Source: Roseovarius mucosus
GTDB lineage: Bacteria > Pseudomonadota > Alphaproteobacteria > Rhodobacterales > Rhodobacteraceae
Length of the DNA stretch: 64,000 nt
Assembly: GCF_002080415.1 (NCBI RefSeq)
Contig: NZ_CP020474.1
Coordinates: 62,001-126,000, forward strand
Direction of reading: 5' to 3'
The notes beneath the pieces were generated by a model. It made no database searches and was not told the origin of the DNA. It was given only the letters and a program-made list of their open reading frames with translations. This document shows, in pieces, positions 45,028-61,249 of the stretch; positions within the stretch are counted from its first letter, which is position 1, and each line of letters opens with the position of its first letter. The position numbers and the translations under genes were made by a program.

Positions 45028-45987
45028 ATGACAGGGCAGGGGCGATCCGACCCAGAGACAGGCGCTGGCATCACGCTGGCGCATCTGTCGGACCCGCATC
45101 TGCCGCTGACGGGGCCGGTGCCGTGGCATAGCGTGCTGAACAAGCGGGCGCTGAGCCTTTTGTCATGGCACCGCAAGCGCCGCCATCACCACCGGCCAGA
45201 AATCCTCGCGATGCTGATCGCCGATATGCGCGACCATGCCCCTGACCAAATTGCGGTCACGGGGGATCTGACCAATCTTGGTCTGGAAAGCGAGTATCGT
45301 GCCGCGCGTCGCTGGCTTGAAAACCTAGGAAGGCCGGAGCGCGTCATGGTCATCCCTGGCAACCACGAGGCCCTCATTCGGGGCGCATGGGATGCGGGGG
45401 CGGCGCAGTGGCTGCCCTATTGGCAGGGCGATGCTGCACCCGTAACGGTGGATGTGTCCGACGCCTTTCCATATATGCGGCGGCGGGGGATGCTGGCCCT
45501 GATCGGCGTTTCAAGTGCTGTGGCCACCCCGCCGGCCTTTGCCAGCGGCGCGGTCAGTCCGGCGCAATTGGCGCGGCTGGCACCTATGTTGCGCAAGGCG
45601 CGTGATGCGGGCCTCTGCCGGGTGCTGATGATCCATCACCCGCCGCTCGATGGCACGGTATCGGCGCGCAAGGCCCTGCGTGACGCGGCGGCGTTCCGTG
45701 CCGTGCTGCAGGCGGAAGGCGTGGAATTAGTGCTGCATGGCCATAGCCACCGCCACCATCACCAGACACTTGAAACCCGCGATGGGCCAGCCTCGGTTAT
45801 TGGCGTGCCGTCAGCCTCGTCGCTTTATCCCGAGGCGGCCGCCTATCACCTCTATCATATCCGGCCCACCGCCGCGGGCTGGGAGATTGACGTTACGGCA
45901 CGGCACGCGACACGTGAGCAAGAGATGGCGACCGGGCGCTGCACCCGGTTGACACTGGCGCGCGCCCATGCAGCATGCGCGCCGTGA
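45028..45987 (+). CDS. calcineurin-like metallophosphoesterase
   Basis: 319 residues. All metal-site motifs are present: AHLSDPHL, AVTGDLTNLG, VIPGNHEA, MIHHPPL and LHGHSHRHHH. These bind a two-metal centre for phosphomonoester or diester cleavage. LpxH-like and Icc-like proteins share this fold. Given the neighbours, it may hydrolyse a lipid phosphate or nucleotide-lipid intermediate. There is no signal peptide, so it should act in the cytoplasm. A short gap with a six-bp hairpin (44982-44998) separates it from spt. Confidence 0.85.
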   Translation: MTGQGRSDPETGAGITLAHLSDPHLPLTGPVPWHSVLNKRALSLLSWHRKRRHHHRPEILAMLIADMRDHAPDQIAVTGDLTNLGLESEYRAARRWLENLGRPERVMVIPGNHEALIRGAWDAGAAQWLPYWQGDAAPVTVDVSDAFPYMRRRGMLALIGVSSAVATPPAFASGAVSPAQLARLAPMLRKARDAGLCRVLMIHHPPLDGTVSARKALRDAAAFRAVLQAEGVELVLHGHSHRHHHQTLETRDGPASVIGVPSASSLYPEAAAYHLYHIRPTAAGWEIDVTARHATREQEMATGRCTRLTLARAHAACAP

Positions 45988-46095
45988 TGACACCGCTGAA
46001 ACCAAATGCGGCACGCGCCAAGGGCGCAGCCGCCAAGACAAGAGACCGGCGCACCAGAGGCGCAAACTGTCCTGCAAGACCATGAAAGACCTTCC

Positions 46096-47811
46096 ATGCG
46101 CCTGATGCTGAACCTGTTCCGCGCCTATCCGATGGCCAGTTTCCTCATGGTGCTGGCGCTGTTCTTTTCGGGTCTGGCCGAAGGCTTGGGCCTGTCCGCC
46201 ATGTTGCCAATGCTCAAGATCGTGCTCAACACCGATCCATCCGGCACGATGGCAGAGCCGCCGGGGCAGATGGAACAGATGGTGCTTGATGTGCTCGCAT
46301 GGGCCGGAATTCCCGTGACACTCGGGGCGCTGCTGACCCTGATCGTGGTGGCGGCCACGTTCAAGGCGGTGCTGCTTTTGATCGCGCAGCGGCAGGTGGG
46401 CTATACCGCTGCCCGCGTTGCGACCGATCTCCGCCTGCAGATCTTGCGCAACATGATGCGCAGCCGCTGGCATTTCTTCCTGCATCAACCGGCGGGCAAG
46501 CTGGCCAATACGCTGGCCACCGAGGCGCAGCGCGCGGCGGATGCCTATATGAATGGCGCAACTGCGCTGACCTTTTTCATTCAGGCGCTGGTCTATACCT
46601 CGGTTGCGGTGGTGATTTCGTGGAAAGCAACCTTGCTCAGCCTGATCGGCGGGATCGTCATCATCGGCCTGTCGCATTTTCTGGTGCGGATCACCCGCAA
46701 GGCCGGCCAGAAACAAACCGATCTTATGGTCTCGCTGATGTCGCATCTGACCGATACGCTGCAATCGGTGAAACCGCTCAAGGCGATGGCCCGCGAACAT
46801 CTGGCGGATGAGCTGCTCAAGCACGAGACCAACCGTCTCAACAAGGCGCTGCGCCGTCAGGTTCTGGCCAGTGCTGCGCTCAACTCTGGCCAGGATCTGA
46901 TGTTCATCATGGTCATCGCCTTTGGTGTCTATCTGGCGCTCGGCATTCTTTCGATGGATTTCGCCATTGTGCTGATGCTGGCAGTGACGCTGGGGCGCGG
47001 ATATAACTTTCTGGGCAAGGTGCAGAAGCAATATCAGAAAATGATGCAGAGCGAGAGCGCCTATTGGTCGCTGATCGACACCAATCGCCGCGCCGAAGAA
47101 GAACAAGAGCATCTGGGCGGCCATGCCACCCCGGCGCTGACCAAGGGGATCGCCCTGCGCGATATCGCGTTTTCCTATGACGGCAACACGGTGCTCTCCG
47201 GCTTTGATCTTGATATTCCCGCGCATCAGATGACGACACTGGTCGGCCCCTCGGGGTCGGGCAAAACCACGATCATTGATCTGGTGATCGGTCTGTTGCG
47301 GCCGGACACGGGCCAGATCACGATTGATGACCGCCCGTTCGAGGAAATCGACCTCAAGGCGTGGCGTCGCATGGTGGGATATGTGCCGCAGGAAACGGTG
47401 CTGCTGCATGACAGCGTCTTGCACAACGTATCCTTGGGGGACCCGCAGATTTCCGAGGCTCGGGTAGAGGCGGCGCTGAAACAGGCTGGAGCCTGGGATT
47501 TCGTGCAGGACCTGCCCGAAGGTATCCACACCCTCGTGGGCGAGCGCGGCGGGCGGCTTTCTGGGGGCCAGCGTCAGCGGGTCGCCATTGCCCGCGCGCT
47601 GATCAACGCGCCGCAACTTCTGATCCTCGACGAGGCGACCAGCGCGCTTGACCCCGAAAGCGAGGCCGCCATCATCGAAACGCTGCGCGGCCTGCGTGAA
47701 CAGCTTACAATCCTTGCCATCACACATAACAGCAGCCTGTCGGATGCCGCCGATGTCGTCCACCGGCTAGAGCCTGCGGCGGCGCCAAAGGTCGCGACAG
47801 ACGAGGCTTAG
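46096..47811 (+). CDS. ABC transporter, fused permease-ATPase (MsbA-like lipid exporter)
   Basis: 571 residues from ATG 46096 (MRLMLNLFRAYP); the upstream frame is not homologous. A six-helix type 1 exporter domain precedes the ATPase. Walker A is GPSGSGKTTIIDL, the signature LSGGQRQRVAIARAL and Walker B LLILDEATSALD. Half-transporters of this kind flip lipids across the inner membrane. It is last in the plus-strand operon and the natural candidate to export the lipid made by the preceding genes. The exact cargo is not shown by sequence. Confidence 0.88.
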   Translation: MRLMLNLFRAYPMASFLMVLALFFSGLAEGLGLSAMLPMLKIVLNTDPSGTMAEPPGQMEQMVLDVLAWAGIPVTLGALLTLIVVAATFKAVLLLIAQRQVGYTAARVATDLRLQILRNMMRSRWHFFLHQPAGKLANTLATEAQRAADAYMNGATALTFFIQALVYTSVAVVISWKATLLSLIGGIVIIGLSHFLVRITRKAGQKQTDLMVSLMSHLTDTLQSVKPLKAMAREHLADELLKHETNRLNKALRRQVLASAALNSGQDLMFIMVIAFGVYLALGILSMDFAIVLMLAVTLGRGYNFLGKVQKQYQKMMQSESAYWSLIDTNRRAEEEQEHLGGHATPALTKGIALRDIAFSYDGNTVLSGFDLDIPAHQMTTLVGPSGSGKTTIIDLVIGLLRPDTGQITIDDRPFEEIDLKAWRRMVGYVPQETVLLHDSVLHNVSLGDPQISEARVEAALKQAGAWDFVQDLPEGIHTLVGERGGRLSGGQRQRVAIARALINAPQLLILDEATSALDPESEAAIIETLRGLREQLTILAITHNSSLSDAADVVHRLEPAAAPKVATDEA

Positions 47812-48935
47812 CTACGACCCACCAAGGCGTTGATCCGGTCCAGCGCACGCGCCATGTCACTGGGCGGGGGCGTGTCTGAGGCGGGGCGCACAGGCTCTCC
47901 CAGCCATGTCATGCGGCCCGAGCGCGCAAGCCGCAGGTGCATCTGGCTGATGTCGCGCGACAGATGCTTCCAGCCCCAACGCATCAAGGCGCGATAGGCC
48001 AGTGCACCAAGGCTAAGATCAGGGCGGTCAGGATCGTGTCGCGCGAGCGCGCGTGCCTGCGCACGCTCTCCGATCGCCACCAGCGCATCGTGCCGCATGC
48101 TCAGCGTGCCCGCGCCCAGATCGAACATATGCACGGGCTTGCCCGTCGCATAGGCCTCAGACAACATCGAGATACTGTCAGCAGTGACAATGATCTCATC
48201 CGCGATGGCCAGAAACCCAAGATAGGGGTTTTCCGGGTCATTGGGCCGAAAACGATAAAGCTGCATCGGCACATCGGTTTGCGCGGCAAAGGCAGCGATG
48301 GCCTCAGGCGGCGTGCGGGCGCTGGAACTGATAAGAAGCGATCCGCCCCGCGTCTTTGCAAGCGCCATCGTATCGCGCAAGAGCCGCGCAGAGGCGCGCG
48401 CGCCAAACGCATAGGGGCCGCTCGGGCCGCCGATATTCAGCGTAAGATAAGGCCGGGGCAGATGCGCCAATTTGGGGGCCCAGTGTGCGCGCGCCGTCTC
48501 CAGCCGTTCGGGCGTCAGCGGATGCAGGGGCAGGGCGTTGCGCAACACATTGGGCCGGTCAGGCACGCGGTATTGTGGCGTGGTGATGACCAGATCGAAA
48601 TGTGCAGGATCGGCCCAAAGCCGCCCCAAAAACACCAGCCGCGTGCGCCCGCCCGATTGATCCTTGATCCAGCGCGCGACAGGCTCGTTGCGCATGCCCA
48701 TGGAAATCACCAGATCGGGCCAAGGGGCGCTCAGCGGATCAGAGGCGGGAAGGTCTACCCCCCGCAAATCACGCCCACGAAACAGCGTGGTGCGGATTTC
48801 CTTTTTGCGATATCGCAAGGTTTTGATCTCATAAGGCCAGCCCAGCCCCTGTGCCAGCGCGCGCACTTGGGTTTTCTCGCCAGAGCGGTAGGCATCCAGC
48901 ACCCAGACGCGTGGGGTCGCGTTGGCCTCAGGCAT
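47808..48935 (-). CDS. ELM1/DUF1022 family protein, copy 1
   Basis: 375 residues. The family is named for a plant mitochondrial fission factor; bacterial members look like GT-B-fold glycosyltransferases. The first domain has WVLDAYRSGEKTQVRALAQ, in which the usual G-D-N-x-Q reads G-E-K-T-Q. The second has IIVTADSISMLSEAYATGKPV, a donor-binding-like acidic segment. ISMGMRNEPVARWIK and SGGRTRLVFLGR are shared with the other two copies in this locus. It starts inside the upstream acyltransferase gene (eight-base overlap) and its stop overlaps that of the ABC gene. Confidence 0.85.
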   Translation of the reverse strand: MPEANATPRVWVLDAYRSGEKTQVRALAQGLGWPYEIKTLRYRKKEIRTTLFRGRDLRGVDLPASDPLSAPWPDLVISMGMRNEPVARWIKDQSGGRTRLVFLGRLWADPAHFDLVITTPQYRVPDRPNVLRNALPLHPLTPERLETARAHWAPKLAHLPRPYLTLNIGGPSGPYAFGARASARLLRDTMALAKTRGGSLLISSSARTPPEAIAAFAAQTDVPMQLYRFRPNDPENPYLGFLAIADEIIVTADSISMLSEAYATGKPVHMFDLGAGTLSMRHDALVAIGERAQARALARHDPDRPDLSLGALAYRALMRWGWKHLSRDISQMHLRLARSGRMTWLGEPVRPASDTPPPSDMARALDRINALVGRS

Positions 48936-49881
48936 CCGGGGCCTTTGGGGCGCTGTCGCGGGTCTTGAACCAACGACGTTTCATGCAGATCCATTCGCCG
49001 GGATAGTCCCTGATCCAATCTTCAAAAATCAGGTTCAGACGATGTGTCATGTCAAGGATACGCTCTTTGCGCGGCAGATCGGGATCGGCTGGGGCAAGGG
49101 GGGCCAGAACCTCGATCCGAAAGCGGGCGTTGGGCAGGCGCACGGCGCGTATCGGCACCAGCGGATAGCCGCGCTGTGCCAACAAGGCAGGCAGGGTGCT
49201 GGTGGGCGTGGGCGTGCCGAAAAAGGGCACCATCTCGCCTTGATCAACGCGGGTGTCAAAGGCGGCACCAACCGACCGACCGGCTGCCAACTCATGCAAA
49301 AGTTCCCGCGCGCCCCCCGCACTTGGCACCAAGGGACCACCGAACGCCCGACGCAGCGAAAGAAAAAAACCGTGCAGCCACGGGTTTGGCTCGGGCGTAT
49401 AGATCACCGAAATCGTCAACTCTCGCTCGCGCCCAATCAGGTTGCAGAGCTGCCACGCGCTGACATGGGCGGTGGCAAAGACAATCGCCTCTTTGCGCGC
49501 GATGATTTCCTCTGCCTCGGGATGAACGAAAAACTCCAAGTGCTGCGTGCGGTTCTGCCAAAGTCGTTCGAGCAGGAAAAGTTCCGCAGCCGCACGTCCG
49601 GTAGACCGGAAAATATCGCGCATCACCGCGTCGCGTGTGGTGTCACTCGCCTCGGGCAGCACATGCGAAAGATTGCGCCCGACCGTGCGGCGCTTTTGCG
49701 CGTTGCGATAGCCCAGCCACCCCAGAGCGCGTGCAAAAAGCCCTGAGGCCACAGAAAATGGCAGCAGCCGCGCAAACCCGAGCATCAGATAGAACACGCC
49801 CGCCTCAACCATCCAAGCCGGGGTCTGAACCCACGGAAACCGTGCGATCAGCCCCTTGGGCGTGAGGAAAAATTTTGCCAT
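48928..49881 (-). CDS. LpxL-like lysophospholipid acyltransferase family protein, copy A
   Basis: 317 residues, one N-terminal membrane helix (about 23-48). It has the lipid A acyltransferase fold, but the catalytic HX4(D/E) motif reads H-V-S-A-W-Q at residues 139-144, with glutamine in place of the acid. Other family blocks (GAAFDTRVDQGEMVPFFG; PLVPIRAVRLPNARFRIEV) are kept. It therefore may be inactive, use a different mechanism, or have shifted substrate. Its neighbour at 50601-51611 has the intact motif, which makes the change informative. It is cotranscribed with ELM1 copy 1. Confidence 0.85.
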   Translation of the reverse strand: MAKFFLTPKGLIARFPWVQTPAWMVEAGVFYLMLGFARLLPFSVASGLFARALGWLGYRNAQKRRTVGRNLSHVLPEASDTTRDAVMRDIFRSTGRAAAELFLLERLWQNRTQHLEFFVHPEAEEIIARKEAIVFATAHVSAWQLCNLIGRERELTISVIYTPEPNPWLHGFFLSLRRAFGGPLVPSAGGARELLHELAAGRSVGAAFDTRVDQGEMVPFFGTPTPTSTLPALLAQRGYPLVPIRAVRLPNARFRIEVLAPLAPADPDLPRKERILDMTHRLNLIFEDWIRDYPGEWICMKRRWFKTRDSAPKAPDA

Positions 49882-49926
49882 GGCGGATATCCGTTCCCGG
49901 ACTTGTGGCGCGGATAAGACCCGCGC

Positions 49927-50583
49927 CTAGGTGCGGTCGGACCGTTCCGGCTTGGTCGGGTAGGTGCGAAAAATCAGATCCCACAGCGGCGAGCTGACAC
50001 CATAGCGCCCGGCATCATCCGAAAAATGGTGCCGCATATGGTAATGCTTGAGGAATTTCAGCGCCGGGTGCCGCATCGGGAAATGGTGCGTGGCATAGTG
50101 GATATAGTCATAGACCAGATAGCCGATGATGAAGAACCCGGTGAACGGCTCGGCCCAGGGGTAGGGCAGGACCGTGTAGAACATGAGATAGAGCACGGCG
50201 ATGATTGGCAGCGCGCCCGCGGGCGGCATCAGCAGGCGCGTCTTATCCTGTGGCGTATCGTGATGAACGCCATGAAAAAGATAGATGAAACGGCGGCCCA
50301 TGTCGGTCTTGGGCTCAAAGTGAAAGAGGTAGCGATGCAGCAGGTATTCCGCCAGCGTCCATGTCACAAGGCCCGCAACCCCGATCATCGCCATGCCGCC
50401 CCAGCCGATGCCATGCACCATCACAGCGCGCGCAATCAACCAGATGGCCACCGGACCCCAGACCAGCAAGGGCACGATGGGATGCACATGGCTCAACTTT
50501 TCAAGAAGCGGGTTCTCGAACAGGCGAACCGACTCGTCGACGCGATGCGTGCGACTGGGTTGATGACTTGTCATTTTGGGCAC
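49927..50583 (-). CDS. sterol desaturase/fatty acid hydroxylase superfamily membrane protein
   Basis: 218 residues, about four hydrophobic segments. The diiron histidine boxes are H83RYLFH88, H104GVHH108, H162YATHH167 and H180YHMRHH186, the arrangement of fatty acid 2-hydroxylases. In eukaryotes FA2H hydroxylates the N-acyl chain of ceramide. That role would fit the sphingolipid genes around it, but desaturation or other C-H oxidation is also possible. It is encoded between two LpxL-like genes on the same strand. Confidence 0.9.
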   Translation of the reverse strand: MPKMTSHQPSRTHRVDESVRLFENPLLEKLSHVHPIVPLLVWGPVAIWLIARAVMVHGIGWGGMAMIGVAGLVTWTLAEYLLHRYLFHFEPKTDMGRRFIYLFHGVHHDTPQDKTRLLMPPAGALPIIAVLYLMFYTVLPYPWAEPFTGFFIIGYLVYDYIHYATHHFPMRHPALKFLKHYHMRHHFSDDAGRYGVSSPLWDLIFRTYPTKPERSDRT

Positions 50584-50600
50584 TCCTGATCTGCGCCGAC

Positions 50601-51611
50601 TTATGCGTCTTCATATATGTCGGTTTTAGCCCGAAGAATAGAAGACGGCCAGATTTTGCTCGTGCAAAGCCAATCTCCGGGCTTTGCCGTTATCCATTGT
50701 TCGAACTTCTCGTTGATCTGACGGGCAAGGTCAACGGTCTGATTGTCGCGGTCCATCGTGGGGTCACTGGGCACCAAGGGCGGATAGAACCGCACGCGAA
50801 AGCGCGCACCGGGCAGCCGTTCGGCCTGCACGGGAACCAAAGGCACGCCAAACCGCAACGCCAGCCGCGCGGGCAACAGCGAGGATTCCTTGTCTTCATC
50901 GAAAAACGGAATCGGTTTGCCGCCCTCGACGCGCCGATCCGTCAGCATGATTGGCGACCGCCCGGACTTCAGCGCATCAACAAAGGCGCGCAAACCCTCG
51001 TTGCGCGACACCAATTCGCAGCCCAGCATGCCCCGATATTGCAGCATCGTGCGGTCAAGCCACGGGTTTGTCAGCGGGGCGTACATGGCACAGGGGCGCA
51101 CACCCAAACGCGCGATGGCGGTGGCCATCATTTCCCAGTTTGCCAGATGCGCCGACACGAAAACCGCCGGTTTGGTCGGATCAGAATAGGCGGGAATCTG
51201 CTCAAGCACTTCGATTTCCAGAGTGTCGCGCTTTGGATTGCAGAGCTTGGCCAGATTTGGATATTCGCCCAGCACCGCGCCAGCATTGGCCCAGACCTGA
51301 TTGGCCAGATTGTCGATCTCAGCCGGCGACCTGTCAGGCAGGGACATTGTAAGATTGGCGCGCACATGCTGATTGCGCCGGCCAAAGATCCTGCCAAACA
51401 TCTGCCCCAGACGCGCCCCAAGCGCAGAGGCCCATGTCACGGGCATCAAACGGAAAAGCGACATGACCGAGGCCAAGACCACATAGTCGATGAACCACAG
51501 CACATTGCGCGCAACGCGGTTATTGAACAGCTTGTCGCGATGGGCATTGGCGAGAATGAATTTGGCCAAGGAGGACTCGACTTCTTCTGATGCAGTGTGG
51601 ATACTTACCAC
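50601..51611 (-). CDS. LpxL-like acyltransferase, copy B
   Basis: 336 residues if GTG 51611 is the start; an ATG at 51731 would give a longer N-terminus without resemblance, and no good ribosome-binding site is visible, so the start is unsure. A membrane helix lies at about 37-60. The catalytic HX4E motif is intact as H155LANWE160. LTDRRVEGGKPIPFF and PLVPVQAERLPGARFRV are family blocks. It should transfer an acyl chain to a lipid acceptor at the inner membrane. It is divergent from the ceramide synthase-like gene. Confidence 0.85.
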   Translation of the reverse strand: MVSIHTASEEVESSLAKFILANAHRDKLFNNRVARNVLWFIDYVVLASVMSLFRLMPVTWASALGARLGQMFGRIFGRRNQHVRANLTMSLPDRSPAEIDNLANQVWANAGAVLGEYPNLAKLCNPKRDTLEIEVLEQIPAYSDPTKPAVFVSAHLANWEMMATAIARLGVRPCAMYAPLTNPWLDRTMLQYRGMLGCELVSRNEGLRAFVDALKSGRSPIMLTDRRVEGGKPIPFFDEDKESSLLPARLALRFGVPLVPVQAERLPGARFRVRFYPPLVPSDPTMDRDNQTVDLARQINEKFEQWITAKPGDWLCTSKIWPSSILRAKTDIYEDA

Positions 51612-51732
51612 GTTAATTGAGGCAAGGTGCCGGAATTGCAAGCAGTTTCCATGGTTGGTTCCGCCGCTCTGGCATGCGCGCCACGCAGGGCTGCGCGCCG
51701 CCTTGCCCGCATCATCGCAAGAAAGGCCCAAG

Positions 51733-52884
51733 ATGTCGCCAACACAGCCTGAGGGCGCTCACATTCGGCTGGTCGAGGCCGTAAATGGCGCGGCGGTCCG
51801 GGATTTCCTGCACCTGCCAGAGCGGATCTATGCCGATGATCCGGCTTGGGTGGCCCCACTGATCTTTGAGCAAAAGCAGCGCGTGTTCGAGAATGCGCCG
51901 CTCTTTGCCCATTGCGAGGTTGCCCGTTGGGTGGCCTACCGCGACGGCGTGCCCGTGGGCCGCATCACGGCGCAGCTTGATACGCTTCAACCCGAGGCCG
52001 AAGAGGGGGGCAAGATCGGCTATTTCGGGATGCTTGAGGCGGTGGATGACAGAGCCGTGTTCGACGCGCTTTTTGGCGCGGCCGAGGCGTGGCTGCGCGA
52101 TAGGGGCGCGGCCCATCTGCGCGGGCCCTACAACCTCTCGATCAATGAGGATCTTGGCCTTTTGGTTGAGAATTTCGACGATCCGCCCTTCGTGATGATG
52201 GGCCACGCGCGGCCCTATTATCAAAGACAGATCGAGGATCGCGGTTTTGCCACGATCAAGGACCTCCTGACCTACAAGGTGCGCCCCGATTTCGTCGCCC
52301 CCGAGGTGATGACGAAACTGGCCCAACGTGCCAGCCGCACCGTCACCATCCGCCCCCTCAACAGCAAGGGCAAGGCGGCGGATTACGAGGCGATGCGCGA
52401 TATCTTCAACGATGCCTGGTCGGACAATTGGGGCTTTGTGCCCTTTACGCGCGAAGAATTCGCCGAAACCGCCAAGGTTCTGTCGTTCCTTCTGTCGGAC
52501 GATTACATCCAGTTCGCCGAGATTGACGGACGCCCCGTGGCCTTTATCACCGCCTTTCCCAATCTCAACGAGCTGATCGGCGATCTGCGCGGGCGGCTTT
52601 TGCCCTTTGGCTGGGCCAAGCTCTTGTGGCGGCTCAAGGTACGTGGACCGAAAAGCGCGCGCGTGGCGCTGATGGGGGTGCGGAAGGAATACCAGAATTC
52701 CCGCCTTGGGCCGACGTTGGCGTTTTTGGTGATCGACGCGGTGCGCAAGGCGATGCAGCAACGAAACGTCACTTCGGTCGAGATGGGCTGGATACTCGAG
52801 GATAATCATGGCATGCGGCATATCATCGAGGCCATCGGCAGCACGATCTACAAGCGCTATCGCGTCTATCAGAAACCCCTGTAG
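51733..52884 (+). CDS. GNAT-fold N-acyltransferase, bacterial ceramide synthase-like
   Basis: 383 residues from ATG 51733 (AAAGG nearby). The two-lobed GNAT protein resembles the family now known as bacterial ceramide synthase (bCerS of Caulobacter), which attaches the N-acyl chain to the sphingoid base. The N-terminal FLHLPERIYADDPAWVAPL and the central RGPYNLSINEDLGLLVENF and NDAWSDNWGFVPFT are family-typical. The C-terminal lobe has VALMGVRKEYQNSRLGPTLA, in which the acyl-CoA loop RKEYQNSRLG stands out. It is the expected fifth ceramide gene, 7 kb from spt. The assignment is from sequence memory and context, not a search. Confidence 0.78.
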   Translation: MSPTQPEGAHIRLVEAVNGAAVRDFLHLPERIYADDPAWVAPLIFEQKQRVFENAPLFAHCEVARWVAYRDGVPVGRITAQLDTLQPEAEEGGKIGYFGMLEAVDDRAVFDALFGAAEAWLRDRGAAHLRGPYNLSINEDLGLLVENFDDPPFVMMGHARPYYQRQIEDRGFATIKDLLTYKVRPDFVAPEVMTKLAQRASRTVTIRPLNSKGKAADYEAMRDIFNDAWSDNWGFVPFTREEFAETAKVLSFLLSDDYIQFAEIDGRPVAFITAFPNLNELIGDLRGRLLPFGWAKLLWRLKVRGPKSARVALMGVRKEYQNSRLGPTLAFLVIDAVRKAMQQRNVTSVEMGWILEDNHGMRHIIEAIGSTIYKRYRVYQKPL

Positions 52885-53723: not shown

Positions 53724-53775
53724 GGGTGATTTCATAGGTCAGGCGTTGGCCCCAACCGTCCCGCGCGGCTCATCG

Positions 53776-53801
53776 CGAGGGGTCTACCCTCTCACCCCTC
53801 G
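53776..53801. terminator. hairpin between convergent NTP-transferase and sulfotransferase genes
   Basis: CGAGGGGT (53776-53783) pairs with ACCCCTCG (53794-53801) around a ten-base loop. It overlaps the end of the sulfotransferase gene and could stop transcripts from both sides. Confidence 0.4.
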
Positions 53802-54721
53802 TTATACCCAAACACCGGGTCCAGCTTGCCCTCAACCAGCGCATCGACCACCTCTACCTCTTCGGGCGTGAAGTAATCGCGATAGCCGCCGACCTTGCCG
53901 CGCCGCACCTTGAACGAGTCGGGGTTGCTCTCATCCCCCGGCTTGACGCGCTGACCGCTGCCGCGCATGCCCTCATTCGACGCCTCACGCTTTTTCATGT
54001 TTTCATAGGCAGCATAGTCTTTGGCCGCCTCGATATGCGCCGGGTCAGGATCAACGCCGGTAAAGCTGACGACCTGTCGCAGCACCTCGGCCGGATCCCT
54101 ACGTAAATCCTCGTAGCGCACCACCAACACATCCTTGCCCAAGCTGGGCAAGGACCGCGCCCAGGCATTGAACGCCGCGACAATGCGCGGGATGCCGCAA
54201 TCGGGATTGCGCACAAAGTCATAGATCGCCACCTCGCTGCCATGGGCGGGATAGGCGTTCAGGGCCTTCTTGCGCGGGCGCATGCGATAGCTCCACTGGA
54301 AATATTGCGAGACCGCCACATCGCGTGGATCGCGCACCAAGAGCACCAGCTTCTTGCCGCGATACTGATCCAGATCGTCACCATGGTTGAAATGGTCGCG
54401 GATGTAATTGTTGTGGCTAAACAGCACCTTGGGCGCGGCTGGGTTTAGAGCGTGGAAATTGTCAAATTCCAGCATATACTCGGTCTCAAGCCCGTAATGC
54501 AGCTGATAGAAACGCGACAGCATCACGCGAAACCAAGTGCGCCCACTTTTGCCCCAAGACACCAGCGCCCAATCGGCCTCTTGCAGCTTGGCATTCTCCT
54601 GACGCCCGCGCAGGCGGCGTTCCAGCGCGATTTTCTGGCCCTTGGGCAGAAAGAACAGGGCAGAGAGAATGAGGTGACGCGCGGCCACGTCCCGGATCTC
54701 GCGGTAGGATAAATTGGTCAT
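53792..54721 (-). CDS. sulfotransferase domain protein, copy 1
   Basis: 309 residues from ATG 54721; ATG 54730 is close by. PAPS-binding motifs are clear: the 5'-phosphosulfate loop SWGKSGRTWFR at about residues 55-65 and the 3'-phosphate segment RDPRDVAVSQYFQW near residue 135. The C-terminal KVGGYRDYF is shared with the second copy in this locus. It is a cytosolic enzyme of the animal-type family; in bacteria such enzymes sulfate glycolipids or other small molecules. The likely acceptor is the lipid or sugar made by the neighbouring genes. Confidence 0.87.
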   Translation of the reverse strand: MTNLSYREIRDVAARHLILSALFFLPKGQKIALERRLRGRQENAKLQEADWALVSWGKSGRTWFRVMLSRFYQLHYGLETEYMLEFDNFHALNPAAPKVLFSHNNYIRDHFNHGDDLDQYRGKKLVLLVRDPRDVAVSQYFQWSYRMRPRKKALNAYPAHGSEVAIYDFVRNPDCGIPRIVAAFNAWARSLPSLGKDVLVVRYEDLRRDPAEVLRQVVSFTGVDPDPAHIEAAKDYAAYENMKKREASNEGMRGSGQRVKPGDESNPDSFKVRRGKVGGYRDYFTPEEVEVVDALVEGKLDPVFGYNEG

Positions 54722-54858
54722 GTCGGGCATTCTGGTCAGGGATCGGGGTTTCTTGCGGTCCTCATAGAGGGTATCGCTCGGTCTTTGTATGGGTAATTTT
54801 GACCCGTGTCGCATCCGGCGTGATTCCGCGCCATCGCGCAACAACAAGGGAGAGGCCT

Positions 54859-55956
54859 GTGCAGCCCAGCACCACATCGCAAGAGCCAAAGATCTGGTGT
54901 CTCTTGGGGCGCAAAGCGGGCGATAACACGCAGGTCTTGGCCTTGGCCCATGCGCTTGGCTGGCCGATGGAGGAAAAGTTGATCCTCGCGCGTGGTTGGG
55001 AACTTGTACCGCATCTCCTGTTGCGGGTCACGCTCTTGGGGATCGATCAACATGCATCCAGCCCACTGACCGCGCCTTGGCCCGATCTGGTGATCAGCGC
55101 TGGCCGCCGCAACGAGCCGGTGGCGCGTTGGATCAAGCGGCAATCGGGGGGGCGCACAAAGCTGGTGCATCTGGGCCGCCCTTGGGCACCGGTTGAGAGC
55201 TATGATCTGATCGTCAGCACGCCGCAGTATTTCCTGACGCCCGGTCCCATGGTCCTGATCAATCCTCTGCCTTTGCACCAATTCACACGTGCTGGCGTGG
55301 ATCAAGCCGCCACGGCGGCAACCACGGCACTGGCCCATATGCCACGCCCCTATACGACCGTGCTGATTGGCGGGGACAGTGGGCCGTTTGTCTTTACCCT
55401 GGACAAGGGGCGGCTTTTGGCACGAGGGGTGAATCGCCTGATCCGCCAGACCGGTGGCACCGCATTGGTCAGCGGCAGCCCCCGTACCCCGCCCGCCGTG
55501 GCCGAGGCGATCAGCGCCGCCCTTGATGTGCCGGCCCAGTGCTATTGGTGGCACAATCGCGACAAGGCCGCGCCCAATCCCTATTCGGCCTATCTAGGCC
55601 TTGCGGATCGCTTTGTGGTGACCGGCGAGAGCATGTCGATGCTGGCTGAGGCCGCAAGCCTTGGTCGCCCGCTCTATATCTTTGATCCCGGTGATGCGTC
55701 GGGGTCTTGGTGGTCGCATGCGCATAACTTGCGTCCAAAACCGCTGAGCCACGCGCTTGCCATGCGATTTGCCCCGCGCCGGATGCGCCGCGATGTGTCG
55801 CGCATCCAGCAGGCACTGGTGGAGGCGGGGCAGGCCCGCTGGTTAGAGGACGCGCCAGAGTTGATAGCCACAGGCGAGACTTGGGCAAAGAAAATGCGCC
55901 CCGACCCATCGGTCGGAGCGCATGTTGCGGCGGAACGTATCCGCGCGCTGTTTTGA
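54859..55956 (+). CDS. ELM1/DUF1022 family protein, copy 2
   Basis: 365 residues from GTG 54859, which has AGGGAGAGG directly upstream; the frame is open to 54799. The canonical G-D-N-x-Q is present (GRKAGDNTQVLALAHALGW). The second-domain VVTGESMSMLAEAASLGRPL matches copies 1 and 3. GHLG-like SGGRTKLVHLGRPWA and VISAGRRNEPVARWIK are shared family blocks. It lies between the divergent sulfotransferase gene and the glycosyltransferase-like gene that converges on it. Confidence 0.85.
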   Translation: MQPSTTSQEPKIWCLLGRKAGDNTQVLALAHALGWPMEEKLILARGWELVPHLLLRVTLLGIDQHASSPLTAPWPDLVISAGRRNEPVARWIKRQSGGRTKLVHLGRPWAPVESYDLIVSTPQYFLTPGPMVLINPLPLHQFTRAGVDQAATAATTALAHMPRPYTTVLIGGDSGPFVFTLDKGRLLARGVNRLIRQTGGTALVSGSPRTPPAVAEAISAALDVPAQCYWWHNRDKAAPNPYSAYLGLADRFVVTGESMSMLAEAASLGRPLYIFDPGDASGSWWSHAHNLRPKPLSHALAMRFAPRRMRRDVSRIQQALVEAGQARWLEDAPELIATGETWAKKMRPDPSVGAHVAAERIRALF

Positions 55957-55968
55957 ACGCCTAAGCGC

Positions 55969-56919
55969 TTAGGCGGCCTTGGCCAGATTGCCGGTGCTCA
56001 GCGGATGCGCCGGTGCGGGCGGCAGGCTGGGCACGCGCGCGATCACGTCCAACGCATCGTGGCGCACGTGGTTGTCTTTCATTTCCTGACGCAGGAACTC
56101 TTCCGTCAGCTTGCCTTGCTCGACGCATTCCTTGACCAGACCCCAAAAGAAATTCTCTTGGTTCTTGTCGGGATGCTCTTTGTAGTTGCCCATCAGGCCG
56201 TATTCGCCAAAAATCTTGCGGCGCAGGCGCAGCACCCATGCGGCTGGCGGGAACAGGCGGAACCGCTCTGCGGGGCGCCAATCCACCGGCAGGCCGGTTT
56301 TCCATGGCTGGGTTTTGCGGCGGGTGGTGTGCAGCATTTTGGTGTCTGTGGTGAACTTGTCGAAATCGTTCCACTCGTTTTCGATGAACTCCAGCGTGGT
56401 GGGGTCCTCGTTGCGCAGACCGATCCAGCGGGAATAGTCGTGGTCGCCATCGAACATAGCGTTGAACTGTTCCTCAACCTTCCAATGCTTGAGCTTTGCG
56501 CAATCGAGCAGCATCACAGAGCTGGCATAGGCCTTGTCGATCAGGCCCTTGGTGCCCGAACGCATACGCGCCATCACGGCTTTGCCCTTCATGTCGCGGT
56601 TCAGCAGTTCCCAGATATCGGCGCAGGCGAATACGTCGGGGTCGATGACCACGGCGCGGCCCTCATAGCCCATCAACTCGGGCGGCATAAAGCGGGTGGG
56701 GGTAAAGGATTGCAGATCCTCGTTCAACCAAACCCGCTTAACGCCGTCGCGCATATATTCCTGACCTTCACGGGCAAGGAAGAAGGGGTAATCGCGGCTG
56801 TTGACGATATGCACCTCGAATTTGTCATTGTTTGTGGAGTAGCGACGCAGCGCGTGTTCCGCGACGATGGCGCCGACAATCTGCTTGTGGTTCGTCTGGA
56901 TGAATACAGCGTGTTTCAT
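55969..56919 (-). CDS. GT-A-fold glycosyltransferase-like protein
   Basis: 316 residues from ATG 56919 (MKHAVFIQTN); upstream frame not used. The AVVIDPDVFACADIWEL segment holds a D-x-D metal/nucleotide-sugar motif at residues 93-95, as in GT8-like enzymes. The first strand AVFIQTNHKQIVGA and the C-terminal LRRKIFGEYGLMGNYKEH are otherwise unassigned. The enzyme would add a sugar to a lipid or another acceptor. Some members of this group are annotated only as hypothetical proteins, so the exact family is uncertain. Confidence 0.68.
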   Translation of the reverse strand: MKHAVFIQTNHKQIVGAIVAEHALRRYSTNNDKFEVHIVNSRDYPFFLAREGQEYMRDGVKRVWLNEDLQSFTPTRFMPPELMGYEGRAVVIDPDVFACADIWELLNRDMKGKAVMARMRSGTKGLIDKAYASSVMLLDCAKLKHWKVEEQFNAMFDGDHDYSRWIGLRNEDPTTLEFIENEWNDFDKFTTDTKMLHTTRRKTQPWKTGLPVDWRPAERFRLFPPAAWVLRLRRKIFGEYGLMGNYKEHPDKNQENFFWGLVKECVEQGKLTEEFLRQEMKDNHVRHDALDVIARVPSLPPAPAHPLSTGNLAKAA

Positions 56920-57107
56920 GATGAGTGATCCGCAACCTCGGTTTTTTGTTCTGAGCGGCTCTATACAGGAGAATTTGCAGAGACGCCATGTCCAGAAACA
57001 CAATTAAAACTGTCATGTATTGATCTGGATCAGAGAATAGCCCCAATCTTACACGTTTGTAACTGAACCTGATCGCGATACGCGGGTTCTCGCCCATCGC
57101 GCCAGCG

Positions 57108-58055
57108 TTAGCGGAACACACCCCGTCGATAAAGCTGTCGCATAAAGCCCCAGATATGGATCAGCGGGCGGCGGCGCACTTTGTCGGGGATTTCGACCAC
57201 TTGGCCGGAATGGCGCGACAGTTTCCACGCAAGGTAATCAAGGCCGCCTTCAAAGGTGAACAGCCCCTTGATGAGCCGCGCCACCGACAGCGCCTTGCCC
57301 TGCACCCGGCGCAGCGCCCAGAGGATGGGTGCAAGGCGGCGTGCGCGGGGCGATACGTTGCTGCGATACCTCGGCGCGCCCTCCGCCCCTCGCTCAAGCT
57401 GCAAGACATCCGCCATACGCGGCAAGAGCGCCTGCGTCATCGCCGTGAAGAAGCTCCGCCCATGCCCCGCCAACTCTGCCGCGCGGCCCTGCTTTTCGGC
57501 ACGCAATTCCGTGGCATAGCTCAGCGCCAGCGCGCCTTGCCAGAGCGCCTCGACCGATCCCTCGGGTGGCAAGGCGGGCAGGGCGCGGCGCAAGAGCGTT
57601 TCGCCTGCCCGCAAAAATGCGGCGTGCAGGCGCGTTTCCACATCCTGTGATTGACACCAGATTGGTTTGACCGGCTGCGCAAACCGCCCCCAGAGATAGG
57701 ATTGAAACCAGCCAGGGCCGGTGCCGCGTTCAAACTGCCGCAGGCTGAGGACCGCATATTTGCAGCGCACCGTGTCAGAGCCCAGAGGCGCCTCCAAGTA
57801 ATAGACATTGGGCGGCAAGAGCCGACCGCCCAGCCGCAGCCAGAGGCGGGGTTCGGCCTTGGGCGTGCTTTCGACCAGCACATAGAAATCGACCAGCCCA
57901 TCCAGCAGATTGGCGCTGCGCAGGCACGATCCATACAGGATCACCGCCTGCAACCCATCGCCAAAGCGTGCGGTCAACGCCGTCATCAGCGCGCGCAATT
58001 CCGCAGAGCTGTCTAAGGTCGGGCCGTCCGGGGTGGGATACTGCGCGCCGGTCAT
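57108..58055 (-). CDS. nucleotidyltransferase-fold protein of unknown function
   Basis: 315 residues. The start AVILYGSCLRSANLLDGLVDFYVLV has the G-S motif (residues 42-43) of the NTase superfamily and one acid at position 56. The second acid of the D-x-[DE] pair reads tyrosine, so the active site looks degenerate or different. The rest is helical, with a basic C-terminal segment DKVRRRPLIHIWGFMRQLYRR. I do not recognise the family. It lies in the same orientation as the kinase and ELM1 copy 3, so it may belong to head-group synthesis. Confidence 0.55.
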   Translation of the reverse strand: MTGAQYPTPDGPTLDSSAELRALMTALTARFGDGLQAVILYGSCLRSANLLDGLVDFYVLVESTPKAEPRLWLRLGGRLLPPNVYYLEAPLGSDTVRCKYAVLSLRQFERGTGPGWFQSYLWGRFAQPVKPIWCQSQDVETRLHAAFLRAGETLLRRALPALPPEGSVEALWQGALALSYATELRAEKQGRAAELAGHGRSFFTAMTQALLPRMADVLQLERGAEGAPRYRSNVSPRARRLAPILWALRRVQGKALSVARLIKGLFTFEGGLDYLAWKLSRHSGQVVEIPDKVRRRPLIHIWGFMRQLYRRGVFR

Positions 58056-58129
58056 GGATCTGTGCTGCCTTGCATCGGGTGGTGCCCGCCGTTCTATACG
58101 CGCTTGATGCCCGCGCCAACTGCCCGCGC

Positions 58130-59116
58130 CTATTTCGGGCGCAGGAACCGGATCGGTCCTTCGGCCTCGATCACCAATGGCACGTCACCCCCGGACGTCG
58201 CGAACAACTCGCCATCAAGGTTCAACTCGCCGTCAAAACGCAATTCGATCCGCGCACCGCGAAAACTCTCATACCCGTTCTCGAGCGTCACATGCCGATT
58301 GGGATGCCCGCGCAACACCGAGGGAAAGGCGCGGGCAAACCGCCGCGCGCCGCCCTGAATTGCCGTCAGGCCAATGGGGGCCTGTTGCTTGGCCCAAAAG
58401 GGTCGGATGCCGAGGAAAAGCCGCCCCAGCGTGCTCGCCACAAGGATCAGCATCGGGGCGGTATCGCGCGTGACATCCGCACCCGTCCCGTTCTGCACCG
58501 TCATCGCGACATGCGTGGGCTGGTAAAACCTCGCGTCTTGGCGGATCAATCCCCAGACGGACCGGATCAAAACCATGCCAAGGCTCAGCTCGCCGCCCAG
58601 CCCGCGCGAATGCACGGTCTTATGGGCAAAGCGCGTGGCCTGCATGATCGCCCCGGTGCCCAGAAACATACCGTGCCGGATATGGCCATCCGCAGCGCCT
58701 GTTACCCGCATGATATGGCGCGCGCGAATATCCCCCGAAAGGGGCGCGCCGCAATCAAGCCAGCGAAAAAACCGCTTCAACGCCCGCCTATGCGAAGAGG
58801 CGGTGCCAATATCCCCCGCCGTCATATTGGCGGTGCCGCCGGGCAAAAGCACGATCAGCGGCAGGCTCTCCCGCGGCCAATGGCTTAGGATCATGCCCAG
58901 AGCGGCGGCAATGGTGCCGTCGCCGCCATTGATCACCACCACATCGGGCCGTGAGGCGGCCAGTTGCGGCACCAGCGCTTCGGCCTCTTGGGGCGAGCGG
59001 GTTACGTGATGGGCAACCTGCGGATAGGCCGCGAGCCGCGCCTCGATATGCGCCTGCCATTTGCGGTTATTGCCGCTGGTGGGGTTGCTGATCATGCATA
59101 TGCGGGTCGTGCTCAT
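58130..59116 (-). CDS. diacylglycerol kinase-family lipid kinase (ceramide kinase-like)
   Basis: 328 residues from ATG 59116. The catalytic domain starts TRICMISNPTSGNNRKW and has VINGGDGTIAAAL at about 62-73 and LLPGGTANMTAGD, the nucleotide-binding motifs of DAGK, sphingosine and ceramide kinases. The C-terminal beta-sandwich domain is present. In Caulobacter a DAGK-family enzyme, CpgB, phosphorylates ceramide; a similar role is suggested by position. It starts one base after the ELM1 copy 3 stop. Confidence 0.87.
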   Translation of the reverse strand: MSTTRICMISNPTSGNNRKWQAHIEARLAAYPQVAHHVTRSPQEAEALVPQLAASRPDVVVINGGDGTIAAALGMILSHWPRESLPLIVLLPGGTANMTAGDIGTASSHRRALKRFFRWLDCGAPLSGDIRARHIMRVTGAADGHIRHGMFLGTGAIMQATRFAHKTVHSRGLGGELSLGMVLIRSVWGLIRQDARFYQPTHVAMTVQNGTGADVTRDTAPMLILVASTLGRLFLGIRPFWAKQQAPIGLTAIQGGARRFARAFPSVLRGHPNRHVTLENGYESFRGARIELRFDGELNLDGELFATSGGDVPLVIEAEGPIRFLRPK

Positions 59117-59117
59117 G

Positions 59118-60269
59118 TCAGCGCCCCGACAAGAGCGGATCAATCCGCGCAAGGATACGCGCCACATCGGCATCGGTGGCCGACAGGGCAGGGCGGTCGC
59201 CCATTCTGGCATCCTGCCTCTCGCCCATCCATGTGGCCAGCCCGCGATCAATCAGGATCTGGTGAAACCGGGGGAAGTGCCGGGTTTGTTGCAGCATCCG
59301 CAAATGATAAAGCCCACGCGCCAGTGCGAGGCGCAGCCGCTCGGCCGGCCCTGCATTGCGGCGCGCCTGAAACATCCACGCCGCTGCGCGCCTGCGGGCA
59401 TCGTCAAGCTTGCCCAAGGGACCAAAGGGTAGGGGCACGATTTCCAGCGCCTTTCCAAGCCGCGCCACCTCGACCAGCATCGAAATACTGTCGCCGGTCA
59501 CAAGAAAGCGGTCCGCCAGCGCCAAAAGGCCGGTATAGGGGTTTTCACTGTCGGGTTGGGTCCAGTCAAAGCGCTGCACGCCCTGGGGTAGCCCAGCAGT
59601 TACGCGGTCCAGAAACCCTGTGGGTGTGCGGCGCGAGCCGACGATATAGGGCGTGCCGCCCTCGGATAGCACCTGTGCCATCCGTGCGCGCAGCCGCGCC
59701 TCCATCTCTGCGTTATAGATAAAGGGGCTGGTCGGCCCACCGATGAGAAACACCACCAGTGGCCGGGGTAAAGCGCCCAAGCGCTCTTGCCACGCCTTGC
59801 GCCCCGCCTCCAACCGCTCGGGGCTGATCTTCATCAAGGGCAGGTCGATCTGCATCACGTTTTCAAAGGGCGCGGGCAGGGTTTCGGCACTGGTCACGAT
59901 AAGGTCAAACTGCGCCATCTGATGCGAGAACCAGCCCGCAGGCTTGCCCACCAGCACAATCCGCGTGCGCCCGCCTGATTGCTTCTTGATCCAGAGCGCC
60001 ACATTGGCTGAGCGCCGCCCGCGCGTCAGGATCACATCTGGCCAAGGCGGCTCGATCGGATCGCTCAGGCTCTGGTCAATGTGATAAAGCGTGGGGCCGA
60101 CGCGCGGTTTGCCCACCACGAATTTCGGCAGCATTTCGAGGTGCCGCAGTTCCGACACCCAGCCGCGTTCCCGCGCCAGCGCTTCGGCGACAATCTCGAC
60201 TTGCGCATTGTCGCCGCGCTTGTCCCCCAGAACCCGCCAGATGCGGGGCATCGCGTCAGGCTGGCTCAT
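59118..60269 (-). CDS. ELM1/DUF1022 family protein, copy 3
   Basis: 383 residues, the longest of three copies. The N-terminal GDKRGDNAQVEIVAEAL has the canonical GDN-x-Q. SGGRTRIVLVGKPAGWFS and TGDSISMLVEVARLGKALEIVP correspond to the family blocks. It overlaps the upstream sulfotransferase by four bases and is one base from the lipid kinase, so the three are clearly one operon. The link between an ELM1 protein and a lipid kinase supports a lipid glycosylation or head-group role. Confidence 0.85.
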   Translation of the reverse strand: MSQPDAMPRIWRVLGDKRGDNAQVEIVAEALARERGWVSELRHLEMLPKFVVGKPRVGPTLYHIDQSLSDPIEPPWPDVILTRGRRSANVALWIKKQSGGRTRIVLVGKPAGWFSHQMAQFDLIVTSAETLPAPFENVMQIDLPLMKISPERLEAGRKAWQERLGALPRPLVVFLIGGPTSPFIYNAEMEARLRARMAQVLSEGGTPYIVGSRRTPTGFLDRVTAGLPQGVQRFDWTQPDSENPYTGLLALADRFLVTGDSISMLVEVARLGKALEIVPLPFGPLGKLDDARRRAAAWMFQARRNAGPAERLRLALARGLYHLRMLQQTRHFPRFHQILIDRGLATWMGERQDARMGDRPALSATDADVARILARIDPLLSGR

Positions 60270-61249
60270 TCCGCCGGTTTGTCCGCATTTGCCGTGGCTG
60301 CATAGCGATAAACCGGATCAAGCCGTGCCTCGACCAGCGCGTCGATCACTGCCACTTGAGCATCGTCGAAATAGTCGCGATACCCGCCCACCTTGGCGCG
60401 CCGAGTCTTGTAGCTGTCGGGATTGCTTTTATCGCCGGGGGCCACCCGCGCGCCACTCAGGCGGAAACTGCTGTCAGCCTCTTTCTTCTTCATATTCTCG
60501 AACGAGGCATAATCCACCGCCTCTTGGATGGCGGCGGCATCGGCGGGAATGTCCAGAAACTGCGCCACCTCGGTCAGAACCGAGTGGGGATTGGCGCGCA
60601 TATCCTCATACCGAATAAGGCAGAGCGCGCGCATCTTGTCCATTTCCCGCGCCCAAAGGTTCATAAAGTCGATGATCTTGGGCAGACCGCCGCCCTCATG
60701 CAGGACAAAATCATAGATCGGCGTTTCATCGTCATGGGCCGGGTATTCATTCAGCGCCTTTTTCTCCGATGGCATCCGAAAGCGCCATTGAAAGAATTGC
60801 GACACTGCCACATCGCGCGGGTCGCGCATCATCAACAGAACCTTCTTGTCGTAGAAATCCGCCTTGTTGTCGGTGTTTCCGGTGAAATCACCGATGTAAT
60901 TGTCATGGGTAAAGAACAGACGCGGCGCGCGCCGGTCCATGTTGTGAAAATTGTCGAACCCGATCAGAATATCCTCGGGCAGGTCATAGACCTGTTGATA
61001 GAGCCGCGAAATCATCACCCGCAGCCATGTGCGCCCACTTTTGCCAAAGGATACAACCACCGCATCGGCGCGTTGCAGGCTGGCGAATTGCTCGCGCCCG
61101 CGCATGTGGCGTTCGGCGCGGATACGCTCGTCTTGATCTGCGCCTGTCATGTCCATCTTGAGCTTGAGCAGGCGGCGGCTGGCCTTGCGCCAGCCAACCT
61201 TGCTGGCCTCGGGAAAGGAGGCGCGGAGAAGGCGGAGGGTGTCACGCAT
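60266..61249 (-). CDS. sulfotransferase domain protein, copy 2
   Basis: 327 residues. The PAPS 5'-loop SFGKSGRTWLR lies at residues 67-77 and RDPRDVAVSQFFQWRF follows. It is clearly related to copy 1 (shared MKKKEA, PGDKSNPDSYKTRRAKVGGYRDYF), but the N-terminus differs and the divergence is old. Two sulfotransferases in one locus could act at different positions or on different acceptors. No PAPS synthesis genes are in the window. Confidence 0.88.
   Translation of the reverse strand: MRDTLRLLRASFPEASKVGWRKASRRLLKLKMDMTGADQDERIRAERHMRGREQFASLQRADAVVVSFGKSGRTWLRVMISRLYQQVYDLPEDILIGFDNFHNMDRRAPRLFFTHDNYIGDFTGNTDNKADFYDKKVLLMMRDPRDVAVSQFFQWRFRMPSEKKALNEYPAHDDETPIYDFVLHEGGGLPKIIDFMNLWAREMDKMRALCLIRYEDMRANPHSVLTEVAQFLDIPADAAAIQEAVDYASFENMKKKEADSSFRLSGARVAPGDKSNPDSYKTRRAKVGGYRDYFDDAQVAVIDALVEARLDPVYRYAATANADKPAE

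Follow-up and report, generated by a model that had tools for sequence, protein, structure and literature searches.

The stretch of DNA analyzed here (the window) comprises 64,000 nucleotides of the Roseovarius mucosus genome (contig NZ_CP020474.1, positions 62,001 to 126,000) and contains a cluster of sphingolipid genes at 40.7 to 61.3 kb. On the basis of gene content and distribution, we consider it fairly probable that this cluster directs the synthesis and export of a phosphosphingolipid that bears sugars and probably sulfate and takes the place of lipid A/lipopolysaccharide (LPS). An initial annotation had described the region as a tailoring and export locus for a sphingolipid, possibly sulfated. 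That interpretation was partly supported; the connection to LPS, which is the stronger finding and makes the locus more interesting than first stated, for another reason, had been missed.

Gene content and organization of the cluster

The genes of the cluster are listed below by window coordinates. Several of the listed open reading frames (ORFs) had over-long starts, and shorter starts were placed by eye using homologues.

40724..42550 (start approximate), plus strand: AasR-like acyl-ACP synthetase, AMP-binding (PF00501, 2.4e-55; homologue in locus L068 of Caulobacter sp. RHG1)
42547..43506, plus strand: CerR-like reductase, NAD-dependent epimerase family (PF01370, 1.3e-26; counterpart in L068)
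43496..43762, plus strand: AcpR, specialized acyl carrier protein of 88 amino acids (ORF; tblastn match in L068 and others)
43759..44973, plus strand: serine palmitoyltransferase, SPT (NCBIfam NF047599, 577.7 bits; cut-off, 500)
45028..45987, plus strand: metallophosphoesterase, CC_1158-like (PF00149, 8.9e-15; position in L068)
46006..47811, plus strand: ATP-binding cassette (ABC) exporter, MsbA/HepA-like, putative sphingolipid flippase (PF00664 and PF00005)
47808..48935, minus strand: ELM1 protein a (PF06258), predicted GT-B glycosyltransferase
48928..49881, minus strand: LpxL-like acyltransferase a (PF03279, 5.9e-35; H(x4)Q motif)
49927..50583, minus strand: fatty acid hydroxylase, FA2H-like (PF04116, 4.7e-19; His motifs intact)
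50601..51731 (real start probably within the ORF), minus strand: LpxL-like acyltransferase b (PF03279, 6.2e-43; H(x4)E intact)
51733..52884, plus strand: CerS-like GNAT ceramide synthase (PF00583, 1.3e-8; 45% identity to the Caulobacter sp. RHG1 locus)
52926..53723, plus strand: MobA-like nucleotidyltransferase, CC_1153-like (PF12804, 3e-16; follows cerS in L068 also)
53792..54730 (upper coordinate approximate), minus strand: sulfotransferase a (PF00685, 8e-22; motifs for 3'-phosphoadenosine 5'-phosphosulfate [PAPS])
54799..55956 (start approximate), plus strand: ELM1 protein b (PF06258, 1.6e-55)
55969..56919 (upper coordinate approximate), minus strand: GT8-like glycosyltransferase, no Pfam match (DxD-type motif IDPD)
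57108..58055, minus strand: Tam41/CDP-DAG-synthase-like nucleotidyltransferase, CC_1161-like (PF09139, 21.3 bits, below the cut-off of 24)
58130..59116 (upper coordinate approximate), minus strand: ceramide kinase, CpgB/CC_1160-like, DAGK-type (PF00781, 3.8e-15; GGDG motif; 26% identity in L068)
59118..60269, minus strand: ELM1 protein c (PF06258, 7e-46)
60266..61249, minus strand: sulfotransferase b (PF00685, 2.1e-25; solved SULT structures down to an E value of 2.2e-9)
61352..63319, minus strand: AT3-SGNH O-acyltransferase, uncertain member (PF01757, 3.4e-29; labelled in L009, L010 and L102, not in L106)

All of the families named by the initial annotation at 45.0 to 61.3 kb were present, and a Pfam scan of 20 window proteins agreed with it except for the Tam41-like protein, which was below the cut-off, and the glycosyltransferase without a match; the metallophosphoesterase gene had been overlooked. 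The gene set of this region was thereby confirmed as real, with an order beyond chance. A plus-strand run (aasR-cerR-acpR-spt-phosphoesterase-ABC exporter) and a minus-strand run (LpxL-like b-hydroxylase-LpxL-like a-ELM1a) are followed by cerS and the nucleotidyltransferase gene (plus), sulfotransferase a (minus) and ELM1b (plus). The last run, on the minus strand, consists of sulfotransferase b-ELM1c-ceramide kinase-Tam41-like-GT8-like genes.

The SPT scored above the cut-off of the NCBIfam 'BetaP' model (577.7 bits versus 500) and below that of the 'AlphaP' model (449.9 versus 670), as expected if the locus originated outside the Alphaproteobacteria. The ABC exporter matched a HepA-type model with 290 bits and the MsbA model TIGR02203 with 261 bits, both far below the cut-offs. 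ELM1 proteins, known chiefly from plant mitochondrial fission, were represented by three members with 157 to 198 bits against a Pfam cut-off of 27. A structural model of ELM1a, the only one of the three to be modelled, had a GT-B fold close to those of the galactolipid synthase MGD1 and MurG; UDP-GlcNAc 2-epimerases have the same fold and ranked equally high, so the fold did not separate a transferase from an epimerase. A search of PDB sequences with the ELM1 profile produced chance matches only, and no literature link was found for bacterial ELM1. In the context of this locus, bacterial ELM1 proteins are likely to be lipid glycosyltransferases. The model of the GT8-like protein had a GT-A fold like that of LgtC with a DxD-type motif; this protein had no Pfam or NCBIfam match, and its search of PDB sequences likewise gave chance matches only.

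Both sulfotransferases matched PF00685 with the PAPS-binding motifs kept, and a gene for adenosine 5'-phosphosulfate (APS) kinase is present in the same genome. PAPS supply was rejected as a marker of the locus, APS kinase matches being found in 74 of 79 Roseovarius genomes. The catalytic motif of the LpxL/HtrB family, H(x4)D/E, appears as HLANWE in LpxL-like b and as HVSAWQ in LpxL-like a. The Q of the latter was shared by 18 of 20 aligned matches, of which those from two Halieaceae loci are actually the b paralogue. The histidines of four motifs of the fatty acid hydroxylase were kept in 20 of 20 matches, some of these being one genome counted twice. The Tam41-like protein had 34% identity in L068, where its gene also adjoins that of the ceramide kinase CerK.

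CerS identity was 94% to R. mucosus DSM 17069, 96% to the metagenome-assembled genome (MAG) L009 and 76 to 81% in five further Roseovarius-type loci with a full-length CerS, including those of R. tolerans and R. autotrophicus. The nearest CerS loci beyond the Roseovarius group were those of Halieaceae-type gammaproteobacteria, at about 57 to 62%. Gene order was kept in Roseovarius loci L009, L010 and L012, and L011 agreed with the window over its extent. In L013 and L014 the order was kept up to ELM1c, followed by a different sulfotransferase, and an oxygenase-like gene was inserted after the NTP transferase gene. Genomes G203 (locus L015) and G218 kept the part from the core to the NTP transferase gene, with the sulfotransferase-ELM1-kinase block located across aasR, some 9 to 10 kb off.

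Two further families recurred near cerS in some loci, one 2OG-Fe(II) oxygenase-like (f25; L013 to L016) and the other aspartyl/asparaginyl beta-hydroxylase-like (f18; L037, L088 and others). At the gammaproteobacterial locus L088, a fused ATP-sulfurylase/APS kinase gene (4357 to 6099) adjoined cerR and aasR, placed as PAPS supply would be; two sulfotransferase-like frames were also present at this locus.

Distribution of the locus and of lipid A genes

The genus sample consisted of 79 genomes of the GTDB genus Roseovarius, including that of the window. True spt (E ≤ 1e-90) was detected in 19, at 78 to 100% identity in 13 and at 49 to 52% in 6. Three accessory families were searched genus-wide, and each of them, sulfotransferase b and GT8-like (E ≤ 1e-10) and ELM1 (E ≤ 1e-3), was found in the identical 13 genomes with a close spt and was absent from the remaining 66. 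Every one of these locus genomes had three ELM1 matches (39 in total), 7 of the 13 had two GT8-like genes, and sulfotransferase matches numbered up to four in some, two of those in G153 being contig-end pieces. Among 149 genomes sampled from the family, spt of at least 47% identity was present in 4 and sulfotransferase b (E ≤ 1e-15) in the genome of the window only. The earlier proposal that the tailoring genes form one unit with spt thus held for these three families, none of which was found without a close spt in the 79 genus and 149 family genomes.

The six genomes with a divergent spt carried another sphingolipid locus (L122 to L126) that lacked ELM1 and sulfotransferase b, and all six had LpxC. 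The accessory genes therefore mark one type of sphingolipid locus and not sphingolipid synthesis in general. It is very likely that the locus acts as one functional sphingolipid unit.

LpxC (PF03331) was detected in 65 of the 79 genomes. Of the 14 without a match, 13 were the locus genomes and the other was G191, which is fragmented and 81% complete. When only genomes of at least 90% completeness were considered, LpxC was missing from 10 of 10 locus genomes versus 0 of 58 locus-free genomes (Fisher P = 3e-12, kinship ignored). Low completeness was seen for locus genomes G166, G185 and G196 (65 to 86%); the genome of the window is 100% complete and had no LpxC by PF03331. As positive controls, the same model matched LpxC in E. 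coli, Caulobacter, Synechococcus and Bacteroides. No literature on lpxC in Roseovarius was found, and the papers listed for Roseovarius with sphingolipids or with lipopolysaccharide provided no link either.

LpxK was searched in 30 of the 79 genomes. Scores of 312 to 338 bits were obtained for 16 of 17 locus-free genomes (none in G191) and of 61 to 324 bits for 12 of 13 locus genomes (none in G196, which is 73% complete). The Walker A motif (GGTGKTP), read in 8 of the 13 locus genomes, was lost or altered in 7, including that of the window, and was intact in 3 of 3 locus-free controls. An LpxK without this P-loop is not expected to be active as the known 4'-kinase. The LpxK frames of the locus genomes were open (303 to 352 amino acids; 452 in G184, with an upstream extension), a hint of recent loss or of a leftover noncatalytic role. 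In the genome of the window, LpxK (L111, 6399 to 7385; C1, about 3129.4 to 3130.4 kb) is an open frame without Walker A and a possible pseudo-enzyme. Decay of the KdtA-like protein beside LpxK was rejected, as 145 to 157 of 175 reference columns were kept in seven locus genomes; by eye this protein seems to lack the usual KdtA glutamate, as it does in lpxC-positive genomes, and it was not used as evidence. LptD was present in all 79 genomes, and LptF, LptG and LptD are adjacent in the genome of the window. These analyses indicated that lipid A has likely been lost in this lineage.

Host trees were constructed from PdxA, KsgA and SurA (77 of 79 genomes) and from CysNC alone or combined (40 of 79). 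The locus genomes fell into five groups interleaved with lpxC-positive genomes. The first group was R. mucosus and the second R. autotrophicus, with lpxC-positive G163/G181/G223 as sister of the latter in the first tree and in the combined one; the CysNC tree did not show this relationship. R. tolerans was sister to lpxC-positive G187 and G153 to lpxC-positive G171, while G166 (410 contigs at 86% completeness, perhaps a mixed bin) was located among lpxC-positive genomes. Fitch parsimony required 4 to 5 changes, or 3 to 4 without G166. In the locus-gene tree, R. tolerans and MAG L011 joined the R. mucosus group with a support of 1.00, contradicting the host trees, and this conflict suggests that the locus has moved between lineages of the genus. 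Several separate switches to the locus state are suggested by the host trees. One early switch, with a later return of lpxC by recombination, could also account for the pattern, but LpxK has decayed to different degrees, which is in keeping with several switches that differ in age.

Beyond the genus, LpxC and LpxK were searched in named genomes for 50 of 80 CerS loci, most of them MAGs for which completeness was not given. LpxC was found in 27 and not found in 23. This named set (G227 to G276) overlaps the genus genomes, identical LpxK coordinates showing that L009 is G167, L010 is G172, L012 is G201, L013 is G186, L014 is G185 and L015 is G203, and counts across the sets are not independent. 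Among 15 Halieaceae-type genomes (L017 to L028, L033, L034 and L047; most of them MAGs), LpxC was not found in 10, including Pseudohaliea rubra DSM 19751 and Halioglobus japonicus BC5_1; 9 of these 10 were also without LpxK, and the tenth (L047) had three LpxK fragments.

The Halieaceae-type loci share CerS, the NTP transferase, the metallophosphoesterase, SPT, AcpR, ELM1a, the ABC exporter, two LpxL-like proteins and the hydroxylase with the window, within the limits of the stretches. They differ in that several have a MurA-like gene, of the EPSP synthase family, as well as a pair of LptF/G-like genes and in that the ceramide kinase and Tam-like genes were not seen within the fetched stretches. 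We know of no description of such sphingolipid loci, at which no literature search was aimed. The MurA-like family (f14; 388.9 bits in L019) was located between the phosphoesterase and spt genes in 12 loci of the range L017 to L034. Three ammonia-oxidizer-type MAGs (L040, L049 and L053) had phosphosphingolipid genes and kept LpxK, and LpxC was not found in them.

Predicted product and alternative explanations

The following scheme is read from the genes and is provisional in each chemical step, in the order of steps, in the position of the sulfate and in the replacement itself. AasR, AcpR, SPT, CerS and CerR would convert acyl-AcpR and serine to ceramide, and the ceramide kinase and Tam41-like enzyme would begin a phosphate head group, as in the ceramide-phosphoglycerate of Caulobacter. 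Sugars would be added by the three GT-B (ELM1) enzymes and the GT8-like enzyme, and the head would be sulfated by the two PAPS-dependent sulfotransferases; sulfation of the product is, in our judgment, reasonably likely. With no lipid A, the LpxL-like enzymes would need another acceptor. The hydroxylase may provide a chain hydroxyl for these enzymes to esterify, in imitation of the acyloxyacyl arrangement of lipid A. The lipid would be flipped by the ABC exporter and carried to the cell surface by the retained Lpt system. In a cell that cannot start lipid A synthesis, the simplest explanation for the presence of two LpxL-like enzymes, the Lpt bridge and an MsbA-like exporter is that they are used on another lipid.

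Several observations weigh against this replacement. The LpxK of R. tolerans (G201) is intact-looking and keeps Walker A, and Roseovarius MAG L011 combines the locus with lpxC in a normal neighborhood and a normal-scoring LpxK; this MAG is a mixed bin or else a genuine intermediate. A search for the empty lpxC site in 520 kb of the genome of the window did not find it and gave no match to ftsZ, bamD or recN. Of the lipid A pathway, the search covered lpxC and lpxK. An excerpt of the Roseovarius genus description has 2-OH and 3-OH fatty acids, not assigned to species (PMC8267831); for species-level hydroxy fatty acids, nothing assignable to the locus species was found in the literature. In the Halieaceae, 5 of the 15 genomes had the locus together with lpxC and lpxK, including Mangrovimicrobium sediminis, and sulfotransferase matches were found in lpxC-positive loci L020 and L021 and in lpxC-negative L026, indicating that sulfation does not track LPS loss in this group.

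An unlikely alternative, although the strongest, is that the core makes plain ceramide-phosphoglycerate and that the ELM1, GT8-like and sulfotransferase proteins modify a different glycan of the envelope, for example a sulfated capsule or exopolysaccharide, which travels with the locus and compensates for the lost LPS. The GT8-like and sulfotransferase families are large and widespread (6402 and at least 4596 homologues, respectively), an AT3 acyltransferase and a methyltransferase-like gene lie at the edge of the region, and the sulfotransferase-ELM1-kinase block is distant from the core in G203 and G218, all as a separate glycan would allow. That same block, however, holds the ceramide kinase and Tam41-like genes between the GT8-like and ELM1c genes, and the run that contains ELM1a also includes the hydroxylase and the two LpxL-like genes. 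Furthermore, Halieaceae-type ELM1, LpxL-like, hydroxylase and ABC genes flank spt and cerS, and the scan of 20 window proteins revealed no Wzx/Wzy-type polymerase or flippase.

Lipid A loss and the locus might instead be independent traits of the lineage, linked by shared ancestry or assembly error only. Consistent with this, 12 of the 13 locus genomes are in one part of the genus tree, three are of low completeness, MAG L011 breaks the rule, and in the CysNC tree taken alone G163/G181/G223 do not adjoin the R. autotrophicus group. This explanation appears improbable given that the host trees intersperse locus genomes with lpxC-positive ones, with 3 to 5 changes by Fitch parsimony, that records labelled as R. 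mucosus, R. tolerans and R. autotrophicus strains are among the lpxC-negative genomes, and that a parallel exists in the Halieaceae. A divergent lipid A pathway that is missed by PF03331 and served by the LpxL-like enzymes would fit the open LpxK frames lacking catalytic residues and the kept LptD, but is highly improbable, as the model detects LpxC in 65 of 79 Roseovarius genomes and in four control taxa and the known kinase activity would not be expected of an LpxK that has lost its P-loop.

Replacement of lipid A by the sphingolipid can be extended, more speculatively, to a mobile 'LPS-replacement cassette' that spreads between Roseovarius lineages. Possibly, such a cassette specifies a sulfated, oligosaccharide-bearing, multiply acylated mimic of lipid A, with ELM1 proteins as its glycosyltransferases and the native Lpt system for transport; after each arrival lpxC would be lost and lpxK would decay to a dead but open protein. 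The reason for the near-universal need for lipid A, and the nature of possible substitutes, are open questions. As one genus holds both states and the cluster marks the change, the swap would be datable, comparable and genetically testable. The locus also gives bacterial ELM1 proteins a functional context and predicts, in culturable strains, a sulfated bacterial sphingolipid, of which none was described in the literature searched.

Elsewhere in the window, a guanidine-II riboswitch (mini-ykkC) match was detected at 31107 to 31153 on the minus strand (38.5 bits; gathering score, 32).

Comparison with known systems

According to excerpts of the published work, Caulobacter phosphosphingolipids are made by eleven genes, of which five serve ceramide synthesis and the others are CC_1161, CC_1160 (ceramide kinase), CC_1159, CC_1158, CC_1153 and CC_1152 (PMC11324152). 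A putative flippase also belongs to the pathway, as does a hydroxylase for acyl chains that is from a different family (PMC11324152, PMC10331486). Locus L068 of Caulobacter sp. RHG1 had homologues in the published order, with one member checked per family: AasR, CerR, AcpR, SPT, Tam-like, CerK, CDP-alcohol transferase family, phosphoesterase, LptF/G pair, CerS, nucleotidyltransferase and second NTP transferase. Nine of the eleven genes of the CC_1152-CC_1168 locus (aasR, cerR, acpR, spt, cerS, the kinase and the CC_1161-, CC_1158- and CC_1153-like genes) are shared with the window, so that homology gives good grounds for a ceramide with a phosphate-bearing head. Common to both, in a different arrangement, are the blocks aasR-cerR-acpR-spt, cerS-nucleotidyltransferase and kinase-Tam-like, and both have a putative flippase; the anionic product of Caulobacter supports life without lipid A. 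A search confined to the loci found no CC_1159-like (PF01066) or CC_1152-like NTP transferase gene and no LptF/G pair in the window or the Roseovarius loci. Homologues of CC_1159 and CC_1152 are required for CPG2, which is not expected as the end product.

The initial annotation knew of no described bacterial pathway with this full set. Novelty of the whole set was rejected: the core and phosphate steps match those of Caulobacter, which has counterparts of the kinase, the phosphoesterase and the two nucleotidyltransferase-like genes. Relative to Caulobacter, the window adds three ELM1 genes, a GT8-like gene, two sulfotransferase genes, two LpxL-like genes and a PF04116 hydroxylase. Caulobacter retains LpxC (in the control and in L068), whereas the genome of the window is without it.

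In sphingomonads, which are without lipid A (PMC10964400), glycosphingolipids replace it, and the Sphingosinicella MAG L085 had sphingolipid genes and no lpxC or lpxK, as expected. The sphingolipid genes of sphingomonads are scattered according to excerpts of published reports (PMC9386255, PMC11324152), whereas those of the window are in one region, with other glycosyltransferases, sulfotransferases and apparent repeated switches within one genus. With bacterial lipid A, the system shares LpxL-like acyltransferases, an MsbA-like exporter and the kept Lpt machinery, and differs in having no LpxC and, as predicted, ceramide in place of the glucosamine disaccharide. Replacement of LPS by sphingolipid is itself a known theme from sphingomonads and Caulobacter mutants; what is new here is a gene set of its own, predicted to add sugars, sulfate and further acyl chains, that coincides with lpxC loss across one genus.

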